A DNA stretch of 64,000 bases. Origin: Chryseobacterium lacus (lineage in GTDB: Bacteria; Bacteroidota; Bacteroidia; Flavobacteriales; Weeksellaceae). A program made the position numbers and the translations under genes. Where the stretch lies: contig NZ_QPIE01000004.1 in assembly GCF_003336205.1 (NCBI RefSeq), forward strand, positions 1 to 64,000. Reading direction: 5' to 3'. Position 1 is the first letter of the stretch; every line of letters starts with the position of its first letter. A model generated the notes under the pieces. The model was not told where the DNA came from, ran no database searches, and worked only from the letters and a program-made list of their open reading frames with translations. Positions 3,033-12,970 of the stretch are shown here, in pieces.

Positions 3033-3458
3033 TTACATTGTTAAATAATACCTGCGGACTAAACTGTTTTGCAGTTCCTGGACTGCTTTGGACTGCTGCG
3101 CTATCTTCTGCTCCAGTTCCCAGGTGGATTTGATTTTGTTTACCATTTCCGGGTTTCTGTTGGCTTTTTCAATGCCGGGTTGAATCCATTGCAAAAGCAG
3201 TTTTTTCAAGTCTGAAAGGCGAAGCATTTCAATGACGGAGCCGCAAAGGTGCGGGTGAAAGAAACCGTTTTTCCAGAAGGCGTAAAAAGTCCAGTAGTAA
3301 GTTTCCAGTTCTTCCGTGTTGCTGACATACAGAATAAAACAGTTCGGGCAGGGTTCAAAAAGTGGTTTTCCGGCATTTCTGCCGCGGTTTAAAATGTAGA
3401 GTGCCTGTTCGGGCGATTCGCGATGCACTGAGTAAGTGCGTACTTTGTTTGTAAGCAT
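3033..3458 (-). CDS. DUF6943 family protein
   Basis: A 141-residue protein that I recognise as DUF6943-like from the run YILNRGRNAGKPLFEPCPNC (residues ~21-40), the aromatic block YYWTFYAFW and FFHPHLCGSVI (residues ~54-80), and a C-terminal helical region. The family is of unknown function and is seen in Bacteroidota integrative conjugative elements, so it marks mobile or formerly mobile DNA. The gene is alone: a terminator lies directly downstream and a hairpin-rich gap upstream. No transfer, relaxase or integrase gene is visible nearby, so any element is incomplete or remnant. Confidence 0.7.
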   Translation of the reverse strand: MLTNKVRTYSVHRESPEQALYILNRGRNAGKPLFEPCPNCFILYVSNTEELETYYWTFYAFWKNGFFHPHLCGSVIEMLRLSDLKKLLLQWIQPGIEKANRNPEMVNKIKSTWELEQKIAQQSKAVQELQNSLVRRYYLTM

Positions 3459-3747
3459 AATTTTGGTTTAAAAAATTTTGCTCCGCTGAAAATTTTTCAA
3501 AAGAAAAAAAAGAAAAAAAGAAAGTGCTCCGACCGTGTGGAAGGAAAATGCGATGCAATATTTTTTTGCAAAAAGTATTGCCGTATTTTATTTCACGGAA
3601 ATAGTTTTTGCAAAAAACCGTTTACGGCTTGATATTGTCAGCACATTTTCCTGATAACAGACCTTTACTTTCTTTTTTATTTTTTTTTCTTGGTGCCTGA
3701 TCTTCGATTGAGGTGTAATCAAGGCTGTGGGAAGAATGGGAAAAAAC

Positions 3748-3790
3748 AGGTGCATAGTGCTGTGAATACTTGGAACAGTGCTATGCTCCT
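3748..3790. repeat. Hairpin H1 (module copy A)
   Basis: Arms AGGtGCATAGTGCTG and CAGTGCTATGCtCCT pair over 14 positions (two G-U pairs on the plus strand, one mismatch) around a 13-nt loop. It is the first hairpin of the first paired-hairpin module. Confidence 0.75.
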
Positions 3791-3805
3791 GTGCGCGGTG
3801 ACGGA

Positions 3806-3869
3806 AGTGTATTGACGGCAGAGAAAAACGGTTCTTCAGAATCCGAAAAGTGAATGCCGGCTATATACT
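3806..3869. repeat. Hairpin H2 (module copy A)
   Basis: Arms AGTGTATtgaCGGCA and TGCCGgctATATACT pair with a small internal loop; inside, CGGTTC/GAAtCCG forms a second stem. It is preceded by GTGCGCGGTGACGGAAG and followed by TGTAGGAACTTGGGAAA, both of which recur around H4. Confidence 0.7.
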
Positions 3870-3992
3870 GTAGGAACTTGGGAAAGCGGTGGCAAACTGG
3901 GGAAACAGACTCGCAGGATAATGGTGCTTTACGAATCAGTCATCTTGCTAAAATATTTCTTATGTGTCGGAATGGAAAAAGCGGCTGGAAAG

Positions 3993-4154
3993 ACAGTGGT
4001 ATGGAATGCTGAAAGAAAATGCTTTGCTTGGGAATTTTCATCACGCGCCACAAACAAACTACAAACCTTTGCCTATGAAACCGAATTGTTTTTGGTGTGT
4101 GGTGAAAATATGGCGGCAGCGAAAGCAATTTTCTTCAGTATGGAATACTACTGT
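3993..4154. repeat. Hairpin H3, long imperfect inverted repeat
   Basis: A 162-nt inverted repeat. The outer arms ACAGTGGTAT/ATACTACTGT (3993-4002 and 4145-4154) pair with one G-U. The middle arms (about 4006-4025 and 4119-4141) pair with a few bulges. The inner arms 4034-4057 and 4086-4109 match at 20 of 24 positions. A 28-nt apical loop remains. Either strand could fold into one long rod. Confidence 0.8.
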
Positions 4155-4167
4155 GTGTGGTGACGAA

Positions 4168-4220
4168 AGCGACTGTATTGCCACTAAACTTTTCCGCTGA
4201 AAAAAAGCAATACAGTGGCT
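4168..4220. repeat. Hairpin H4 (module copy B)
   Basis: Arms AGCgACTGTATTGC and GCAATACAGTgGCT form 13 pairs with one mismatch around a 25-nt loop. It is preceded by GTGTGTGGTGACGAAAG and followed by TGTAGGAACTGGCCAAA, the same linkers that flank H2. Confidence 0.8.
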
Positions 4221-4437
4221 GTAGGAACTGGCCAAATCCCGAAACTCTCTGCACCATTTTTCTGCATCCTTAGCAGGGTTGGTGGGGATTTGTAGGTTTT
4301 CGTTTGGGGAACAGAACTTGTAAATTATAACTGCCCTGGCCGCTGGAAGGCGGTGGCTCCTGAGGGCTTGCCCGAAGGAAAGGAAAGCATTTTACATAAT
4401 TTCAAATTATAGGCACTTGGTGGCTGGTTGTGAGGGA

Positions 4438-4488
4438 ATACAGTTTTGCAGAAACGATGGAAAAATGCGGTTGCCTGCAAAACTGTAT
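4438..4488. repeat. Hairpin H6, perfect 14-bp inverted repeat
   Basis: Arms ATACAGTTTTGCAG and CTGCAAAACTGTAT are exact reverse complements with a 23-nt loop. The sequence GGAGGAACC follows, reminiscent of the GTAGGAACT after H2 and H4. Confidence 0.85.
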
Positions 4489-4596
4489 GGAGGAACCCCC
4501 CGTAGCGTTGGAAAGTGCGTATAATTTTCATTATGTAACTTGCTGTGGCAGAGCGTGGATTTTGGAAAAAAATCTTTTACTTTGAAAGAATAAAAT

Positions 4597-4623
4597 AATA
4601 GCAATCATTTTCTGACTGCTATT
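4597..4623 (-). terminator. Terminator of the metal-resistance operon
   Basis: Stem AATAGCA/TGCTATT, read leftward and followed by ATTTTATT, 8 nt past the stop codon of the P-type ATPase gene. Confidence 0.6.
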
Positions 4624-4631
4624 AATATTTA

Positions 4632-6743
4632 TCAAAATTTCATATTCTGTATTCTAACCGCATTTAGGATTGCAAGAAGTGCTACACCAACATCGGCGAA
4701 AACGGCTTCCCACATTGTGGCTAAACCGCCTGCTCCCAATATTAATACAATTCCTTTTACTACGAATGCAAGAATAATATTCTGCCAAACAATTTTCTTG
4801 GTCTGTTTCCCAATGTTGATTGCCATTGGAATTTTGGAGGGTTTGTCGTCCTGTATTACCACATCTGCGGTTTCTATGGTTGCATCGCTTCCCAAACCGC
4901 CCATTGCAAGCCCAACATCACTCAATGCTACAACAGGAGCATCATTTACACCATCTCCCACAAATGCTACTGTTTCGTTCCTGCTTTTTATTTCTTTTAC
5001 TTTATTTACTTTGTCTTCGGGGAGTAAATCTCCAAAATAATTGGTAATTCCAATTTTTTGGGCTACTTCCTGAACCACAGCCGTTTTGTCACCACTCAAC
5101 ATTGTAGGTTTTACGCCTAATTTTATTAATGCATCAACGGTATTTTTTGCATCTTCTTTTATCTTATCGGAAATGGTAAGATAGCCGGCAAATTTTCCGC
5201 CGTAAGCCACTGCAATAAGGGTATCAGCAACAGATTTGTGGTCTACAGTATAAGGGACAGAAAATTTATCCATCAGTTTGAAGTTTCCTGCAAGGAATTC
5301 TTTGCCGTTCACCGTTCCTTTAAGTCCGTGTCCTGAAATTTCTTCCACATTTTCCATATTTACGGAATGGTCAATTTCACCTACATATTCGTGAACTGCT
5401 GTTGCAATGGGGTGAGTGGATTTACTTTCAATAATATTGAGGTATTTCAGGATTTCTTTTTCATCAAAGCCCTGCTCCATAAAAACCTGCTGCACTTTGA
5501 AAACGCCTTCTGTCATTGTTCCGGTTTTATCCATGACCACATTTTTGATTTCTGCCAAAGCATCTAAAAAATTACTTCCTTTGAACAGAATACCGTTTCT
5601 GCTACCGGCACCAATTCCACCGAAATAACCCAAAGGAATTGAGATTACTAATGCACACGGACAGGAAATTACCAAGAAAACCAACGCTCTGTAAAGCCAA
5701 GTTTTGAAATTGTAATCTGCGACAAAGAAATATGGCAGCAGACAAATTGCCACTGCAAGGAAAACGACAATCGGGGTATAAATTTTTGCAAATTTTCGGA
5801 TAAAGAGTTCTGTTTTTGCCTTTTGTGTTGTAGCATTCTGAACCAATTCCAAAATTTTTGACAATTTGGAGTTGGTATATTCTGTGTTGATTTTTACCTG
5901 CGAAACAGCATTAAGATTTATCATTCCTGCCAAGACTGTATCTCCTTTCTTTTTTGTATCGGGTTTGCTTTCACCTGTTAATGCTGCGGTATTGAAGGAA
6001 GCAGTTTCAGAAATCAGTTCACCATCTAATGCTAATTTTTCACCGGGTTTCAACTGAATAATTTGTCCTATTTGTGCGGTTTCTGCTTTAATGTTTTTTG
6101 GCTGATTGCCGTCCAAAATCGTTACTTCATCCGGTCTTTGGTCTAAAAGTTTGCTGATATTTCCTTTTGCTCTTTGCACTGCAAGAGTTTGGAAAACTTC
6201 GCCCACTGCATAAAAAAGCATTACAGCAACACCTTCAGGATATTCACCGATTGCAAAAGCACCTACTGTAGCAATAGTCATTAAGAAAAACTCTGAAAAA
6301 ATATCTTTTTTCAAGATACTTTCCCACGCTTCTTTGATAACAGGAAATCCTACAGGAATATAAGCAACTATATACCAGACTATCCGCAGCCAATCTTTAA
6401 ACCATTCGGGTTTTACCAAATGGTCTAAAGCAAGCCCCGCAATTAAAATAACGAAAGAAATTACGGATGGTAAAAATAGTTGCAGTGTTGATTTACCCGT
6501 ATTGTCGTGGCTATGATCGTGCTCGTCGGAATGTTCATCGTGCTTTTGTCCATCGTTGTCGGAATGCGTTACGGATGTTTTTGAATTATTTCCTGTACTA
6601 TTATAGGCTTTATCTGTTGTGGAGCAGCATTTATCTTCTAACAATTTTTTAGCACCGGCATCGGTATAGATTTTACCTTCCTGCGGAGTGCAGCACAATT
6701 GATTTCCTTTTTCGTCGTAAATATGTTTGTGTTCTGTTTTCAT
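4632..6743 (-). CDS. Heavy-metal P-type ATPase, Zn/Cd/Pb type
   Basis: A 703-residue P1B-type ATPase that pumps divalent metal out of the cytoplasm at the cost of ATP. The N terminus holds two CC pairs (residues ~17 and 39) and a His/Asp-rich stretch (about 65-80) instead of a canonical GMxCxxC HMA domain. Downstream are the A-domain TGES motif, SCPCALVISIP in the metal-site helix, phosphorylation site DKTGTM, HP in the N domain, and GDGVNDAP. CPC, a Lys in the penultimate helix and DVG in the last helix fit the Zn/Cd/Pb class (CadA/ZntA). It is the last gene of the operon and its start overlaps the end of the ICMT-family gene by 4 nt. Confidence 0.95.
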   Translation of the reverse strand: MKTEHKHIYDEKGNQLCCTPQEGKIYTDAGAKKLLEDKCCSTTDKAYNSTGNNSKTSVTHSDNDGQKHDEHSDEHDHSHDNTGKSTLQLFLPSVISFVILIAGLALDHLVKPEWFKDWLRIVWYIVAYIPVGFPVIKEAWESILKKDIFSEFFLMTIATVGAFAIGEYPEGVAVMLFYAVGEVFQTLAVQRAKGNISKLLDQRPDEVTILDGNQPKNIKAETAQIGQIIQLKPGEKLALDGELISETASFNTAALTGESKPDTKKKGDTVLAGMINLNAVSQVKINTEYTNSKLSKILELVQNATTQKAKTELFIRKFAKIYTPIVVFLAVAICLLPYFFVADYNFKTWLYRALVFLVISCPCALVISIPLGYFGGIGAGSRNGILFKGSNFLDALAEIKNVVMDKTGTMTEGVFKVQQVFMEQGFDEKEILKYLNIIESKSTHPIATAVHEYVGEIDHSVNMENVEEISGHGLKGTVNGKEFLAGNFKLMDKFSVPYTVDHKSVADTLIAVAYGGKFAGYLTISDKIKEDAKNTVDALIKLGVKPTMLSGDKTAVVQEVAQKIGITNYFGDLLPEDKVNKVKEIKSRNETVAFVGDGVNDAPVVALSDVGLAMGGLGSDATIETADVVIQDDKPSKIPMAINIGKQTKKIVWQNIILAFVVKGIVLILGAGGLATMWEAVFADVGVALLAILNAVRIQNMKF

Positions 6744-7339
6744 AAAAGTCTTTTTGTTTTACGTTTGTAATTATTGTAGTTTTCACCATGGCTTTTAAGC
6801 AAGTATTCTTCTTCTAATCTTATTTGGACCTGAATAATGAGGTATACTGTGATGAAAATGCAAAAGGTTATGGCGTTTGGAATTATTAGAAACAAGGAAA
6901 ATACACAAAAAATCATTCCAAGAAAAATTGGATTTCTGCAGATGGAAAATAGTCCTGTAGTAACTAAATCTGTTTTGTTTTTTTCATCAATACCCACTCT
7001 CCAACTATTGCTCATTTGTATTTGTGCGATTATTATCCAAATTAATGAAAGATGCAAAATAATAAGCCCCACTATTCTTATTATTTTGATTTCCAAATAG
7101 TAAATGGGGACTGAATATTGGTATATACTTTCAACACTATACATCATAATTACCGCTAACAAAGTGCCTAAAAGTATTTTCATAATATTTCCCACATAGT
7201 TATGAGCATTGTCTTCTTTGCCGAAAGTAATAGGATTAATGCCGGTTTTTTTATACACTCTGTAAGTAGGAATTACAAATACAAACATCATTACAATTAA
7301 GTAAAAAATTGGCAAATAGTATTTTAATAAATCATTCAT
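6740..7339 (-). CDS. Isoprenylcysteine carboxyl methyltransferase-family membrane protein
   Basis: A 199-residue integral membrane protein with about five hydrophobic spans. The C-terminal ICMT/PEMT signature is clear: TTGLFSICRNPIFLGM near residue 130, then IRLEEEYLLKSHGENYNNY near residue 173. The family binds S-adenosylmethionine at the membrane. Bacterial members often sit in metal-resistance operons, where their substrate is unknown. Its stop codon overlaps the ATPase start by 4 nt, and it lies 12 nt after the membrane-fusion gene, so it is translated within the efflux operon. Confidence 0.88.
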   Translation of the reverse strand: MNDLLKYYLPIFYLIVMMFVFVIPTYRVYKKTGINPITFGKEDNAHNYVGNIMKILLGTLLAVIMMYSVESIYQYSVPIYYLEIKIIRIVGLIILHLSLIWIIIAQIQMSNSWRVGIDEKNKTDLVTTGLFSICRNPIFLGMIFCVFSLFLIIPNAITFCIFITVYLIIQVQIRLEEEYLLKSHGENYNNYKRKTKRLL

Positions 7340-7351
7340 GTAAATTATTTT

Positions 7352-8620
7352 TTAATGTCCGTGTCCTTCTTCGCCGGTGTTATTCATTTTAGCCAAGATA
7401 AAAAAGGCGTTTTTTGTTACCACTTTTATATTGGCGGGAATTGGTTTTAAAGGTGTAATCTGCGTATAACCCAAATCGGTAGTTCCTTTTGCGACAGGAA
7501 TTTTTTCAAAAGTCACTTCGCCTGCTGTTTTCTTATTCTGATTATTTTTTGGTTCTGAATGCGTGTGACCGTGTTCATCTTTTTCGTTTTCGGCAATTGC
7601 CGTATGTTCTTTCTCGGTATGTTCATCCGAAACGATAAAAATAAAATCCTGTCCTTTATCATTTACTATGGATGCTGTAGGTACAGAAGGTGTAGTTTTG
7701 GTATCAAGACTGATTATCGCCGTAACGCTCATTCCATCAATTAATCCGGATTTATCTCCGGTTACATCCGCATGCACGGGAACGGTTTTGCTGTCGCCTT
7801 CAAAAGCGGTTCCAATTGAGGTAATGCGTGCGTCATATTCTTTGGCGGGACTGTTTGTTAATGTAAAATGAATGGTTTGCCCGGGTTGTACTTTAACCAA
7901 ATCTTTTTCATACACATAAATATCCAAATGCAGTGAGGAATTGTTGACAATTTCTGCAATGGGAGAAGCCATATCTACATTACTGCCAATTTGTGCAATG
8001 ACTTTACTCACTGTTCCACTAATAGGAGCACGAACAGACAGTACAGAATTGTAGCCCTGTGAAGCACCAATACTGCCCAACTGTTTCTGCAAACCTGAAC
8101 GCTGACTGCGTAAGGTTGCAAGTTCTGTCTGTGCCTGCTGTAATTTTTTGAGCGGTGCTGCATTTCCTTTGTAAAGTTGCTGTGCCCTTGTTACTTCCAA
8201 TTCTGCCATTTTAATTTGCGCATTCACCTGCTGTAACTGCTGCTGCATCTGAATGAGGTCGGGATTGGAAATGGTTGCGATTACCTTACCTCGGGTAACA
8301 TAACTTCCGGGCTGCACATACAACGAACGCACTACACCACTATAAACAGGGGTTACAAATGCTTTGTTTTGGTTGGGAACTGTAAGCATTCCGCTCACTT
8401 TTACGGAGTTGGTAAGTTCTTTGTTTTCAATACTGCCGTATTCAATCCCGATGGCATTGATCTGTTCGTTGGTGAAGGTTGCAACATTCGGATTTTCGTG
8501 TTCGTCTTTGTGTTGGCTTTCTTCCGTAGTTTCACTATTGTTTTTTTCGATTTGGGTTTCTTTCTTGCAGCCTAAGAGTAAAAGAGAAACTGCAAATAGA
8601 ACTGCTATATATTTTTTCAT
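7352..8620 (-). CDS. czcB: RND efflux membrane-fusion protein (CzcB-like)
   Basis: A 422-residue periplasmic adaptor linking the RND pump to the outer-membrane channel. It has a lipoprotein signal with lipobox LLLLGC (Cys at residue ~18), a first lipoyl half near residue 95 (VRSLYVQPGSYVTRG), a coiled-coil hairpin rich in Gln/Leu (about 122-180), the second lipoyl half (about 195-215), a beta-barrel and a C-terminal domain. Two His-rich stretches (KDEHEN near residue 40 and a longer HTEKEHT...HGHTHS run near residues 333-357) and the final GEEGHGH probably bind metal. It lies between the RND gene (21-nt gap) and the ICMT gene (12-nt gap). It is named czc rather than cus because of the pump next to it. 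Confidence 0.93.
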   Translation of the reverse strand: MKKYIAVLFAVSLLLLGCKKETQIEKNNSETTEESQHKDEHENPNVATFTNEQINAIGIEYGSIENKELTNSVKVSGMLTVPNQNKAFVTPVYSGVVRSLYVQPGSYVTRGKVIATISNPDLIQMQQQLQQVNAQIKMAELEVTRAQQLYKGNAAPLKKLQQAQTELATLRSQRSGLQKQLGSIGASQGYNSVLSVRAPISGTVSKVIAQIGSNVDMASPIAEIVNNSSLHLDIYVYEKDLVKVQPGQTIHFTLTNSPAKEYDARITSIGTAFEGDSKTVPVHADVTGDKSGLIDGMSVTAIISLDTKTTPSVPTASIVNDKGQDFIFIVSDEHTEKEHTAIAENEKDEHGHTHSEPKNNQNKKTAGEVTFEKIPVAKGTTDLGYTQITPLKPIPANIKVVTKNAFFILAKMNNTGEEGHGH

Positions 8621-8641
8621 TTTAAATTCAGTTTTAACCGG

Positions 8642-11600
8642 TTATTTTCCTGTATAATAGTTGTAATTAATGACTGCCTGATTGTAATCATTGAGGGCTT
8701 GCAAATGGTTTTTTCTAATTTCTACTGCCTGTGTAAAGAACTGATACATTTCCGAAAAGCCAATTTCACCGGCACGGTAACTCAACATGGCAGCATCAAA
8801 AATTTGGTCTGCCTGTATGAGACCGGTTCCTTCATAATATTTCAGCAGTTCTTCGGCCTTCATAATTTCGGTGTATGCTGTTTGTTTTTTTGTTGATAGT
8901 TCAGTTTGCTGAAAAATTAACTGCTGCTGTTGCAGTTTCACATCGGCTTCTGCGGCTTCCACTTTGGATTTATAGGCGGATTTACCAAAAATCGGGATTT
9001 CAGCACCCACAGAAAATCCTGTAATTGGGTCTTTAACCCCAAATATGCTTTGAGAAAATATGCGTCCTGAAAAATCAGGTTTGTTCTGCATTTTCTGAAT
9101 TTCAATATTGGCTTTCGAAATCTCAATATTCTGCTGTTGCAATGCGAGTGCAGGGTGAATGCTGTCTGAAATTATTTCTTCCGTCTTTATTTTATTCAGC
9201 GACTGTTTTAAAGGAAGATAATTTTCCGAAGAATTAAGGAAAAGGCTTAACTGTTGTTGCTGCGCTTTAATATCCTGCTGATTTTGTTGCAGGCGTGCCT
9301 GCAATTCCTTCATCCGTGCTTCTGCTGCAATGGCTTCCAAACCGGCTGCTTCACCTGTTTTGAAGCGAAGGTTTGCCGCTTTATACATGGAAGTATAATA
9401 TTCATCCAACTTACTATACAAATTTGCCACCTCCTGCAAATACCACAACTGATAGTAGGAAGCGCTTACTTCTTTGCGAATTACTGCGTCCAAAAGGTTT
9501 TTATTTTTCTTGTGATACTGGGTTTGTTCTTCATAAAATTTTCTTCTTGCCTTGTAAACTCCGGGCCACTGAATGGTTTGTGTTACCGCCAACTGCAATG
9601 CACCTGTCGCCTTACTTGGACGCATCTCCTCATTTTCAAGAAAAATACCTGTTTTGGGAATTTCTCTTTTGGCTTTGGCTTCAATTTCTGCTTTACTGAT
9701 TTGGGCATTATTTACGCTGTATTGCAGATTATTTTGGAAAGCGATATTTACCGCTTCTTCGGGCGAAATTCTTTGTTGGGCAAAGGCACTTCCCCCAACA
9801 AAAATCAGTAAAAATGAAATGATGGTTACAGGTTTGGACTTCAATTTTTTAAGATGTGTTTTCAAGTTATTTTTGGAATTAAAAATAATGTAAAGCAACG
9901 GCAAAACGAAAAGCGTAAGAATGGTTGCCGTAACCAAACCGCCGATAACGACTGTTGCCAACGGACGTTGCACTTCGGCACCACTACCTGTAGAAAGTGC
10001 CATCGGAAAAAATCCGAACGAAGCCACTGCTGCCGTCATCAATACCGGTCTCAAACGGATACTTGTTCCCTGAATTACCCTTCGAAGGATATTATGAACA
10101 CCCGACTGCTGCAAATCTTTGAAAGTGCTTATCAACACAATTCCATTGAGAACTGCTACACCGAAAAGTGCGATAAAACCAACACCTGCCGAAATACTGA
10201 AAGGCATTCCCCGTAACATCAACGCAAAAACACCCCCAATCGCACTCATGGGAATGGCTGTAAAAATGAGAACACTGTCTTTGAGATTTCTGAACGTAAA
10301 AAACAGCAGGACGAAAATAAGTCCTAATGCCACCGGAACTGCAATCTGCAAACGAGAGGAGGCTTCTTTTAGATTTTCGAAAGTTCCGCCATAGGTATAA
10401 TAGTAACCTGCCGGGAGAATTTTTGCATCATTCAGTTTTTTTTGTATTTCGGTTACCACACTTTCCACATCCCTGCCCTTAACATTGAAACCTACCACAA
10501 TACGGCGTTTGCCATCTTCGCGGCTGATTTGTGCGGGTCCTTCTTTAAACTCTACTGTTGCCACCTGCGAAAGCGGTATCTGTACTCCGTTTTCGCCGGG
10601 AATAAAGAGATTACTCACATCATCAATAGATGAACGGTTGATGCTGTCGAGCCGTGCAACCAAATCAAATTTTCTTTCATTTTCAAAAACAACACCTGCA
10701 CTTTCGCCTGCAAAAGCAGTGCTTACTGTATGATTAATATCCTCAATATTCATACCGTAGGAAGCAAGCCTTGCTCTGTCGTAGGTAATGGTTATTTGCG
10801 GTAAACCGTCGGTTTGCTCAATTTGCGGGTCTGTAGCACCTTCCACTGTTTTAACTACATTAGCAACTTTTGGAGCCAATTCTGCAAGTGTATCAATATT
10901 TTCACCAAAAATCTTAATGGCTACGTCCTGACGAACACCTGTCATTAACTCATTGAAACGCATTTGGATCGGTTGTGAAATTTCAAAGAAAACACCGGGT
11001 ATCATTTCTAATTTTTCCATCATTTCGGCACTCAGTTCTTCATAAGATTTTCCGCTGTTTTTCCATTCCTTTTTCGGTTTCAGGGTTACGATAAGGTCGG
11101 ACGCTTCAGGCGGCATCGGGTCTGTAGGGACTTCTGCGCTACCTGTTTTGCCAACCACGGTAATAACTTCCGGAAAAGATTTTAAAATTTTTGAAGCCTG
11201 CATTGAAGTTTCGATACTTTGTGATAATGAAGTTCCCTGTGGCAAAATGCAGTGCACTGCAAAATCACCTTCCTGAAGTTGCGGAATGAATTCGCCGCCC
11301 ATTCGTGAAAAAATTACAAGCGCAACTGTAAGTAAAGCCACTGCTGCTGCAACCACAGCGTATTTCAGTTTGATGGCTTTCTTCAACAAAGGCAGGTAAA
11401 AAGCGTGGAGTTTTTCCATCATACGGTCTGCAAAAGTTTTTTTGTCAGTAATTTTTTTAGACAAAAACAAAGCGGACATCATGGGAATATAGGTTAAAGA
11501 AAGTATGAGTGCACCAAGAATGGCAAAGGAAACGGTTTCTGCCATTGGTCGGAACATTTTGCCTTCTATACCTTGCAGAGAGAGAATTGGCAAATAGACA

Positions 11601-12970
11601 ATGAGGATAATAATCTGCCCGAATGCTGCGGAATTCATCATTTTTTTAGCACTTTTCGCTACGGCGTTGTCCATATTGGCTTGGTTGAGTTTTTTGCCTC
11701 CGTGATGGACTGCGAGAAAATGCAGGGTTGCTTCTACGATAATTACGGCACCATCCACAATCAGTCCAAAATCTATTGCACCCAAACTCATCAGGTTTGC
11801 ACTTACACCGAAAACATTCATCAATCCCAAAGCAAAAAGCATCGAAAGCGGAATAGCAGAAGCCACGATAAGACCTGCCCGTAAATTGCCTAAAAATAGA
11901 ACAAGTACGAGGATTACGATGAGTGCACCTTCCACAAGGTTTTTTTCTACGGTGCTGATTGCACGGTTTACCAAATCGGTTCTGTCCTGAAATGCCTCAA
12001 TAACAACATCCTGCGGAAGGGATTTTTGAATGGTTTCCATTTTTTCTTTTACGCGGCTCACCACTCTTGCAGAGTTTTCGCCTTTCAGCATCATTACGAT
12101 ACCGCCTACAGCTTCTTTGTCGCCATTAAAGGTTAATGCACCGTATCTCACCGCACTTCCCATCTGAACCTGTGCCACATCCTTAATGAGCACCGGAATT
12201 CCGTTTACTTTTTTAATGACAGTATTTGCAATATCATCAAGCCCCGAAATCAAGCCTATACCTCGTATAAAATAGGCATTGGGTTTTTTGTCGATATAGG
12301 CGCCTCCGGTATTCTCATTGTTTTTTTGTAAAGAAGAAAAAATGTCGGCAATGGTTACATTCATCGCTTTTAGGCGAAAGGGATTAATTGCGACTTCATA
12401 CTGTTTCAGTTTGCCACCAAAACTGTTAATTTCTGCCACACCGGGTGTTCCGTAGAGTTGGCGTGCTACAATCCAATCCTGCATCGTTCTGAGGTCTGTA
12501 GGAGAATATTTGTTTTCTGCTCCTTTTTTTGGGTGCAATACATATTGGTATATTTCACCAAGACCTGTAGAAACGGGACCAAGTTCGGGTTTGCCAATCC
12601 CCTGCGGAATTTTTTCTTCGGCTTCCTTCAGTTTTTCGTTTATTAATTGCCTTGCAAAATACACATCCACTTCTTCTTTGAAAACCACGGTAATAACCGA
12701 TAATCCAAATCTGGAAATGGACCTCATTTCTGTAATTCCGGGAATATTGGCAAGGCTTTGTTCTATTGGAAATGTGACCAACTGCTCGGTTTCCTGTGCT
12801 GCAAGTGTAGGTGTGGAAGTAATAATCTGCACCTGATTGTTGGTGATGTCGGGAACTGCATCTATGGGCAATTTTGTAGCACTATAAAGCCCCCAAATAA
12901 TGAGTGCCAAAGTAAAGAGCCCCACAATGAGTTTGTTTTTAATGCTAAACTCTATAATTCTATTAAGCAT
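8642..12970 (-). CDS. czcA: CzcA-type heavy-metal RND pump fused to TolC-like outer-membrane factor
   Basis: A 1442-residue protein. Residues ~1-1040 are a full HME-RND transporter: first TM helix near residue 15, periplasmic porter loops, and in TM4 the motif IDFGLIVDGAVIIVE that marks divalent-cation (Zn/Co/Cd) pumps rather than Cu/Ag pumps. Residues ~1044-1064 form a signal-peptide-like segment (basic KLKSK, hydrophobic core, GGSAFA). Residues 1065-1442 are an outer-membrane efflux protein with two long helical repeats. RND-OEP fusions are known in Bacteroidota. The internal signal suggests the chain is cut after residue 1064 so the channel can reach the outer membrane (inferred). It lies in an operon after DUF6660 and before the adaptor. 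Confidence 0.95.
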   Translation of the reverse strand: MLNRIIEFSIKNKLIVGLFTLALIIWGLYSATKLPIDAVPDITNNQVQIITSTPTLAAQETEQLVTFPIEQSLANIPGITEMRSISRFGLSVITVVFKEEVDVYFARQLINEKLKEAEEKIPQGIGKPELGPVSTGLGEIYQYVLHPKKGAENKYSPTDLRTMQDWIVARQLYGTPGVAEINSFGGKLKQYEVAINPFRLKAMNVTIADIFSSLQKNNENTGGAYIDKKPNAYFIRGIGLISGLDDIANTVIKKVNGIPVLIKDVAQVQMGSAVRYGALTFNGDKEAVGGIVMMLKGENSARVVSRVKEKMETIQKSLPQDVVIEAFQDRTDLVNRAISTVEKNLVEGALIVILVLVLFLGNLRAGLIVASAIPLSMLFALGLMNVFGVSANLMSLGAIDFGLIVDGAVIIVEATLHFLAVHHGGKKLNQANMDNAVAKSAKKMMNSAAFGQIIILIVYLPILSLQGIEGKMFRPMAETVSFAILGALILSLTYIPMMSALFLSKKITDKKTFADRMMEKLHAFYLPLLKKAIKLKYAVVAAAVALLTVALVIFSRMGGEFIPQLQEGDFAVHCILPQGTSLSQSIETSMQASKILKSFPEVITVVGKTGSAEVPTDPMPPEASDLIVTLKPKKEWKNSGKSYEELSAEMMEKLEMIPGVFFEISQPIQMRFNELMTGVRQDVAIKIFGENIDTLAELAPKVANVVKTVEGATDPQIEQTDGLPQITITYDRARLASYGMNIEDINHTVSTAFAGESAGVVFENERKFDLVARLDSINRSSIDDVSNLFIPGENGVQIPLSQVATVEFKEGPAQISREDGKRRIVVGFNVKGRDVESVVTEIQKKLNDAKILPAGYYYTYGGTFENLKEASSRLQIAVPVALGLIFVLLFFTFRNLKDSVLIFTAIPMSAIGGVFALMLRGMPFSISAGVGFIALFGVAVLNGIVLISTFKDLQQSGVHNILRRVIQGTSIRLRPVLMTAAVASFGFFPMALSTGSGAEVQRPLATVVIGGLVTATILTLFVLPLLYIIFNSKNNLKTHLKKLKSKPVTIISFLLIFVGGSAFAQQRISPEEAVNIAFQNNLQYSVNNAQISKAEIEAKAKREIPKTGIFLENEEMRPSKATGALQLAVTQTIQWPGVYKARRKFYEEQTQYHKKNKNLLDAVIRKEVSASYYQLWYLQEVANLYSKLDEYYTSMYKAANLRFKTGEAAGLEAIAAEARMKELQARLQQNQQDIKAQQQQLSLFLNSSENYLPLKQSLNKIKTEEIISDSIHPALALQQQNIEISKANIEIQKMQNKPDFSGRIFSQSIFGVKDPITGFSVGAEIPIFGKSAYKSKVEAAEADVKLQQQQLIFQQTELSTKKQTAYTEIMKAEELLKYYEGTGLIQADQIFDAAMLSYRAGEIGFSEMYQFFTQAVEIRKNHLQALNDYNQAVINYNYYTGK

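Follow-up and report, generated by a model that had tools for sequence, protein, structure and literature searches.

Positions of about 3480-4560 in the window (the whole stretch of DNA that was analysed, 64,000 bases) probably encode a large non-coding RNA, structured and of the + strand, whose gene would make up the right-hand portion of a small mobile element; the probability of this reading is put at roughly two in three. The region carries a conserved and covarying single-strand fold that is real and unusually large. Its layout is modular: one to three two-hairpin modules are set in a common frame made up of a left A/T hairpin, a long-range helix and a terminal helix. An earlier note on this DNA had drawn attention to an array of modules at 3748-4231. 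The array is indeed present, but the structured region is larger and measures about 0.8-1.1 kb. Judged by its sequence it is most likely an RNA, and most likely represents an undescribed large RNA family carried on an element that has no match in the literature searched.

The two-hairpin modules

The two module copies that the earlier note placed at 3748-3880 and 3993-4231 are both found by an independent covariance model. This model, R1, was built from alignment A4, which holds 11 modules of other genomes and excludes the window. When run on the 64,000-base window, it matches 3740-3884 with 131 bits (E 1.2e-36; module A) and 3987-4235 with 73.2 bits (E 8.5e-20; module B), and nothing beyond these two in the whole window at E <= 10. 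The features of the structured region are as follows.

3501-3691, + strand: long A-rich/T-rich hairpin, left of the structured region (A3 consensus fold; present in distant copies too)
3740-3884, + strand: module A, two hairpins with linker and tail (R1 match, motif search)
3746-3763 / 3775-3792, + strand: module A, stem 1
3790-3807, + strand: module A, linker TGTGCGCGGTGACGGAAG, whose first three bases close stem 1
3806-3820 / 3855-3869, + strand: module A, stem 2
3869-3881, + strand: module A, tail TGTAGGAACTTGG
3914-3927, + strand: 5' arm of the long-range helix, which encloses module B (A3 consensus fold)
3987-4235, + strand: module B, two hairpins with linker and tail (R1 match, motif search, A3 consensus fold)
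3993-4020 / 4128-4154, + strand: module B, stem 1
4152-4169, + strand: module B, linker TGTGTGTGGTGACGAAAG
4168-4181 / 4207-4220, + strand: module B, stem 2
4220-4231, + strand: module B, tail TGTAGGAACTGG
4251-4264, + strand: 3' arm of the long-range helix (A3 consensus fold)
4386-4544, + strand: terminal domain, a helix (4386-4416 / 4515-4544) over a hairpin (4438-4451/4475-4488) (A3 consensus fold)
4545-4558, + strand: right-hand end shared by structured region and element, with GGCAGAGCGTGG at 4547-4558; elements at different sites cease to be homologous about here

The first hairpin of module B has a long paired inner part. Some details of the earlier description do not hold. The conserved linker had been called 22 nt long, while the linker given has 17 letters, and the TGTATTG shared by the second hairpins is a coincidence of register, as it runs from base 2 of stem 2 in copy A and from base 6 in copy B. 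The hairpin counted as a sixth one (4438-4451/4475-4488) is real and has 14 bp, but the terminal helix encloses it, and it is no further module, R1 recognising two copies only.

Modules in other genomes were collected using loose start, linker and tail motifs. This gave 26 rows and superseded an earlier strict pairing search that had returned 16 mixed rows. One of the 26 (L087 at 8455) was discarded due to a misplaced start motif, and the remaining 25 contain 22 distinct arm sets. All full-length modules have a single orientation relative to the element; matches on the opposite strand are partial and fall on the same hairpins. An insertion sequence, IS3-like by eye, is found within the array of G027 (L031 7450-8857).

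Covariation of the stems

It had been claimed that the hairpin arms vary while their pairing is kept, and the comparison with other genomes bears this out. In A4, i.e. without the window, 11 of the 26 pairs have changed on both sides compared to 4.8 in shuffles, none of 500 shuffles being as high. The 11 rows, aligned with MAFFT, have 94.1% of their cells paired (86.9% in shuffles), and the covariation score is 0.262 against 0.130 for shuffled rows and at most 0.115 when the structure is slid. When it comes to further pair types there is no excess in A4 (17 vs. 15.6 shuffled, 139 of 500 as high). For the 22 distinct arm sets, 83.6% of stem 1 is paired (shuffles 78.4%) and 82.2% of stem 2 (shuffles 65.7%); the observed percentage paired and the number of cells changed on both sides were in either stem reached by none of 2000 shuffles.

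The covariance-model search that the note had suggested was run, and homologous modules with covarying stems do exist in other genomes. The 63 model-aligned matches (alignment A5) have a score of 0.486, compared to 0.145 for shuffles and at most 0.123 for a slid structure; A5 leans towards the structure because it was fitted to it. Removing four partial antisense matches on the hairpins of already counted modules leaves 59 rows and changes little. Over these 59 modules all 26 model pairs display both-side changes, the number of such cells being 327 (shuffle mean 88.4, maximum 114), and 91.6% of the cells are paired versus 69.5% in shuffles. Since the rows are related, none of these shuffle counts should be read as probabilities.

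Selection on structure rather than on protein, as originally proposed, is thus well supported, both by the covarying arms and by the fact that the reading frame of the array is broken in relatives. The longest such frame (3921-4163, 80 aa) contains stop codons in five of six close relatives, and a protein-coding explanation of the array was rejected on these grounds.

The frame of the fold

The window sequence 3700-4560 folds with -295.7 kcal/mol, compared to -247.2 +/- 7.8 kcal/mol for 20 dinucleotide shuffles (z -6.2). The A3 consensus of seven close copies, corresponding to 3470-4562 in the window, has 277 pairs, 40 of them with compensatory change, and an energy of -251.9 kcal/mol that includes a covariation term of -3.2. 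A distant class of 10 copies with a mean mutual identity of 0.82 has 251 pairs on the + strand, 26 of them compensatory, and 209 on the - strand, 24 of them compensatory. The covariation terms are unfavourable on both strands (+5.0 and +3.5, respectively), so covariation adds little in this class, and the evidence there consists of the kept layout and the energy.

The long-range helix stays paired despite changed letters, as in GCAGAAAAATGGTGC/GCACCATTTTTCTGC, GCAGCAATAGGGTGTG/TGCACCCTATTGCTGC and GCAGGGATAAAAAGGC/GCCTTTTTATTCCTGC. This comparison comprises 16 distinct arm pairs, some of which are out of register but were counted. The terminal helix covaries between genera, and both fully paired variants (for instance TATAGTGCAT/ATGCACTATA and TATAGGGCAT/ATGCCCTATA) and variants with a single mismatch (for instance TATAGGCAC/GTGCGTATA) are found. 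Relatives of P877, the core protein of the element described below, occur in 290 stretches of the genome collection, and the comparisons of P877 loci are based on the best 80 of these. Of the 81 sources (the window and these 80 loci), 37 have the pattern of the terminal helix downstream of P877, all of them among the 67 with at least 3.5 kb of downstream sequence. The 44 sources without a match to the pattern include 14 with less than 3.5 kb downstream and 30 with enough. Among the carriers are records of Chryseobacterium, Kaistella, Epilithonimonas, Soonwooa, Paenimyroides, Parapedobacter and Flavobacterium.

Solo right ends adjoining other genes were observed at L044, L045, L049 and L035 (9587-9637). 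In the first three the right end is followed by a further repeat like ATTAGAAATCC..GCCATCGGG.

The element and its borders

The array forms the right part of an element of about 4.4 kb, of which the remaining features are listed here.

114-207, + strand: left end of the element, with the border motif TTCAACATTGTATTATTACAAG (114-135) and the direct repeat TACAACATAAGTATAAC (191-207); elements at different sites stop being homologous near this point
211-768, - strand: SNase-like nuclease gene, optional (PF00565, E 2e-7; no match in some copies)
877-1680, + strand: P877, 267 aa, core gene (no family or confident fold match; present in 32/41 sources)
1760-2212, + strand: DUF5675 protein (PF18925, E 9.6e-31)
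2216-2488, + strand: p90, 90 aa, by eye a hydrophobic start followed by a coiled-coil-like part (conserved in the element; no Pfam family)
2478-2774, + strand: p98, 98 aa, by eye with hydrophobic stretches (conserved in the element; no Pfam family)
3033-3458, - strand: DUF6943 (PF22105, E 5.2e-45; model pLDDT 87.4)

The usual order in relatives is the same: SNase (-), P877 (+), DUF5675 (+), p90 (+), p98 (+), DUF6943 (-), array, end. Pairwise comparison of loci places the left border about 650-760 bases before P877, or about 325-360 bases in copies that do not have the SNase gene, and the right border directly after the terminal helix. Fourteen locus pairs were compared; four of them (L124/L125, L146/L135, L158/L151 and L175/L178) are near relatives that share flanks far past the element, and these are thus uninformative for at least one border. 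At the left borders the end of a gene is followed by, for instance, CAGCTAACAAGGTATTA or TGCCTATAACAGCGG. The neighbours of the element are unrelated between genomes, and sometimes are metal-efflux or CBASS genes. In a set of 41 sources (40 loci and the window), clusters other than the element genes and the array frames reach at most 8 of 41. The borders adjoin different genes in different genomes, from which it is inferred that the array is part of a mobile element.

With one mismatch allowed, 14 of 99 genomes contain the left-end repeat TACAACATAAGTACAAC, which has 26 places in all; the reversed control gave three. These places are at the elements described here, beside tRNA genes and beside phage-integrase genes. 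Eight loci were checked for tRNA genes, which are present in four (L187, L196, L202, L210), and the frames neighbouring the repeat at L192, L200 and L201 are phage integrases in all three cases tested. At least once (L186) the repeat is inside a gene. G004 displays six apparent solo left ends (L193, L203, L207, L208, L209, L211).

The repeat beside tRNA genes (four loci) and integrase genes (three loci) may be a trait in common with the tyrosine-integrase islands of Bacteroidota, which differ in that the element has no integrase inside it. None of the six genes of the window's element matches a recombinase/integrase or relaxase family in Pfam; it is this copy that was annotated gene by gene, while the others were compared by clustering. 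The element therefore looks non-autonomous, being presumably integrated by an enzyme from elsewhere. Because its left end has the repeat of integrase islands and it has no recombinase gene, a putative tyrosine recombinase supplied in trans would carry out the integration.

The predicted structure of P877 has a pLDDT of 90.6. Foldseek found no match for it in PDB or BFVD at E <= 0.001, no solved relative was found by sequence, and the best VIA-align Z is 4.9, over a beta-sandwich part. For the DUF6943 model, restriction/methylation specificity proteins come first in Foldseek with E not below 0.017 (1ydx: probability 1.00, E 0.017, TM 0.39 over the query). These type I restriction specificity hits, whose E-values are weak, suggest an orphan DNA-recognition domain with a fold that might be like a portion of such a specificity subunit. 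No paper on DUF6943 was found in the open-access literature, where DUF5675 appears in papers on Vibrio phages. Its motif makes DUF5675 a candidate YkuD-like enzyme. As regards packaging or capsid-interfering genes of the kind seen in phage satellites, SNase and DUF5675 match PHROG phage families of endonuclease and of unknown function; PHROG has none for P877, p90, p98 or DUF6943.

A rival reading is cis regulation of the neighbouring genes, in which a long structured leader or trailer would serve as an attenuator or as a double terminator between DUF6943 and the gene that comes next, and no free RNA would be made. The A/T-rich hairpin has the look of a terminator working in both directions, and in the window and several copies the gene beyond the right border is oriented towards the fold. 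However, this right-hand gene differs between genomes, and there is thus no fixed target in cis; also, regulation in cis seldom calls for a structure of 1 kb whose modules are exchangeable. Such a role is considered quite improbable.

Distribution and linkage

The element recurs in Weeksellaceae, in Flavobacterium and in other Bacteroidota. Using strict filters, R1 modules are found in 43 of 320 genomes of the family and in 8 of 296 genomes drawn from the order, two of these being outside the family. P877-like proteins are present in 209 of the 320 family genomes, many of them distant matches (E about 1e-20 to 1e-35) that cover the first half only. DUF6943 is found in 45 of the 320, 40 of them above the cut-off, with up to four places per genome. 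Modules and DUF6943 occur together in 30 genomes compared to six expected by chance, one of the 30 (G343) having a DUF6943 below the cut-off, and 36 of the 43 module genomes have a P877 match with E <= 1e-80; these counts refer to presence in one genome and not to adjacency. Among the 41 sources mentioned above, which were chosen by an array or DUF6943 match, 32 have P877 and 29 have DUF6943. The array is linked to P877 and DUF5675, and often to DUF6943. Neither P877 nor DUF6943 seems to be strictly needed, since 7 of the 43 module genomes have no strong P877 and 13 have no DUF6943. The seven genomes without a strong P877 (G040, G131, G187, G267, G298, G332, G335) may harbour the RNA alone, remnants, or gaps in the assembly.

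These seven genomes would also fit a selfish repeat array, where modules multiply within the element in the manner of REP/BIME or MITE sequences and are paired merely as hairpins, the whole having no function. The number of modules varies from one to three per copy, and the array at L031 has been entered by an insertion sequence. Against this stand the common orientation of the full-length modules, the covariation found also in the long-range and terminal helices that are present in single copy, and the occurrence of the structured region only once in its own genome. A functionless array is thus very improbable.

An origin from phages or plasmids was also rejected, the DNA of the region and P877 being practically absent from such records. 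The DNA has no match in 72,556 plasmid records or 50,697 phage records. P877 was not found in the phage records, has one distant match among the plasmid records (31% identity), and was found at one locus in the viral_contigs scan.

Strand and nature of the folded molecule

In both classes of copies the + strand gives the stronger consensus fold (-251.9 vs. -196.1 kcal/mol for the - strand in the seven close copies, and -222.7 vs. -185.6 kcal/mol in the 10 distant ones). Mismatches in the module stems are more often G-T than A-C, with 25 against 5 in the 22 arm sets (89 other mismatches). In the model-aligned set, 54 of the 63 rows have at least 22 of the 26 pairs filled and give 49 distinct arm sets, in which the numbers are 39 and 18 (shuffled means 111 and 94). 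The excess is moderate, and the sequences compared are related. In the long-range helix, where some rows are out of register, the two types are equally frequent (11 vs. 11). The + strand of the structured region also has more G than C, with a GC skew of up to 0.27. Taken together, the stronger fold and the preponderance of G-T over A-C in the module stems favour a + strand RNA over single-stranded DNA.

A DNA structure would have the + strand fold during transfer or excision, its hairpins being read by a recombinase or relaxase as is the case for integron attC. The structure does lie at one end of a putative mobile element, and the terminal helix is nearly palindromic. The left flank of the element often is like TGCCTATAACA or CAGCTAACA, which by eye may resemble attC half sites. 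Integron attC sites and gene cassettes are also similar to the array in that a folded single strand sits where a mobile unit meets the 3' ends of genes. However, the array is much longer than these and branched, and a fold of about 1 kb far exceeds the known recombination sites that are folded. Pfam finds neither recombinase nor relaxase, nor an integrase as in integrons, among the genes of the element. The G-T excess and the stronger + strand fold fit an RNA, but would partly be shared by a folded + strand DNA. On balance the DNA structure is unlikely, and a + strand RNA is favoured.

Relation to known RNAs and elements

A known RNA family was rejected, as no Rfam 15 model matched the window region or the loci of relatives that were tested. 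At the gathering threshold, Rfam finds only a tRNA in the window and nothing in the loci of 10 relatives. At E <= 1, all matches stay below threshold, being to miRNA and sRNA models for the window region 3400-4640 and to small-RNA models for L146, while L121 has none. In the open-access literature, searched for such elements and for large or structured RNAs of Bacteroidetes and Flavobacteria, nothing could be recognised as this one. PMC9723704 treats the small RNAs of F. psychrophilum in passages that make no mention of the array.

The best reading is that the array resembles GOLLD, ROOL and OLE in kind and is not a member of these families. As described in PMC12286853, these RNAs have elaborate covarying structure, ROOL env-120 being 659 nt and many GOLLD RNAs over 800 nt; their functions are poorly understood there, and GOLLD and ROOL are carried in phages and prophages (PMC12286853). 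The array, which by its sequence is a folded + strand, is like them in size class and in its elaborate covarying structure, and like GOLLD and ROOL in its location on putatively mobile DNA. It differs from all three by matching no Rfam model, by its variable number of two-hairpin modules and by the usual company of P877, DUF5675 and DUF6943. Assembly into homo-oligomers is a further trait of these families. Unlike GOLLD and ROOL, which are encoded in phages or prophages and often near tRNA islands, it is practically absent from phage records and has tRNA genes near only 4 of 40 loci; the latter count also led to rejection of a tRNA-linked RNA. Phage ICP1 and its satellite PLE have large non-coding transcripts that were found by RNA-seq (PMC7567579). 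The trait in common is a long non-coding transcript, here a predicted one, from a mobile element or from the phage that helps it; the hosts are different, and the array was found by covariation.

Possible function and meaning

A single transcript of about 0.8-1.1 kb would cover the structured region, with the A/T-rich hairpin separating it from DUF6943. With less certainty, this RNA may act as a scaffold, alone or together with proteins of the element, P877 in the first place, in keeping or moving the element, and the exchangeable modules may vary its surface or its partners. A tentative and rather doubtful extension is a kit-like RNA of a kilobase, with a conserved frame and one to three exchangeable modules, that on an element lacking a recombinase could form an RNA-protein particle with P877, or an RNA-only particle, for spread or upkeep, exchange of modules shifting its specificity.

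The known bacterial RNAs of such size and complexity are few in number. A further family of large RNAs with strong covariation, culturable hosts among the Bacteroidota, recurrent protein neighbours and natural variation in module number could become a tractable system for studies of function. The analysis also points to a widespread putative mobile element, with P877 relatives in 290 stretches, that sometimes is found beside genes for metal efflux or anti-phage defence.

Genes beside the element

Metal-efflux genes make up the clusters found in five to eight of the 41 sources, along with a 626-aa protein for which PADLOC gives PrimPol/VirE-like hits. To the right of the border the window encodes a P-type ATPase of the Cd/Zn type, an RND adaptor, and an AcrB-type pump that shares a single frame of 1442 aa with an outer-membrane efflux domain; these genes span 4632-12970. 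An ATPase at least 69% identical to that of the window is found in 5 of the 80 named loci. A related ATPase is also the neighbour of copies in Flavobacterium (L135, L146). In G032, two places (L033, L034) share 10,065 identical bases, a stretch that holds the element together with a CBASS set (cyclase, E1-E2, 2TM effector, JAB). The solo left end at L208 adjoins a patatin-like CBASS effector, and the IetA/IetS defence genes are found in the same locus as the element at L097 (11165-14885).
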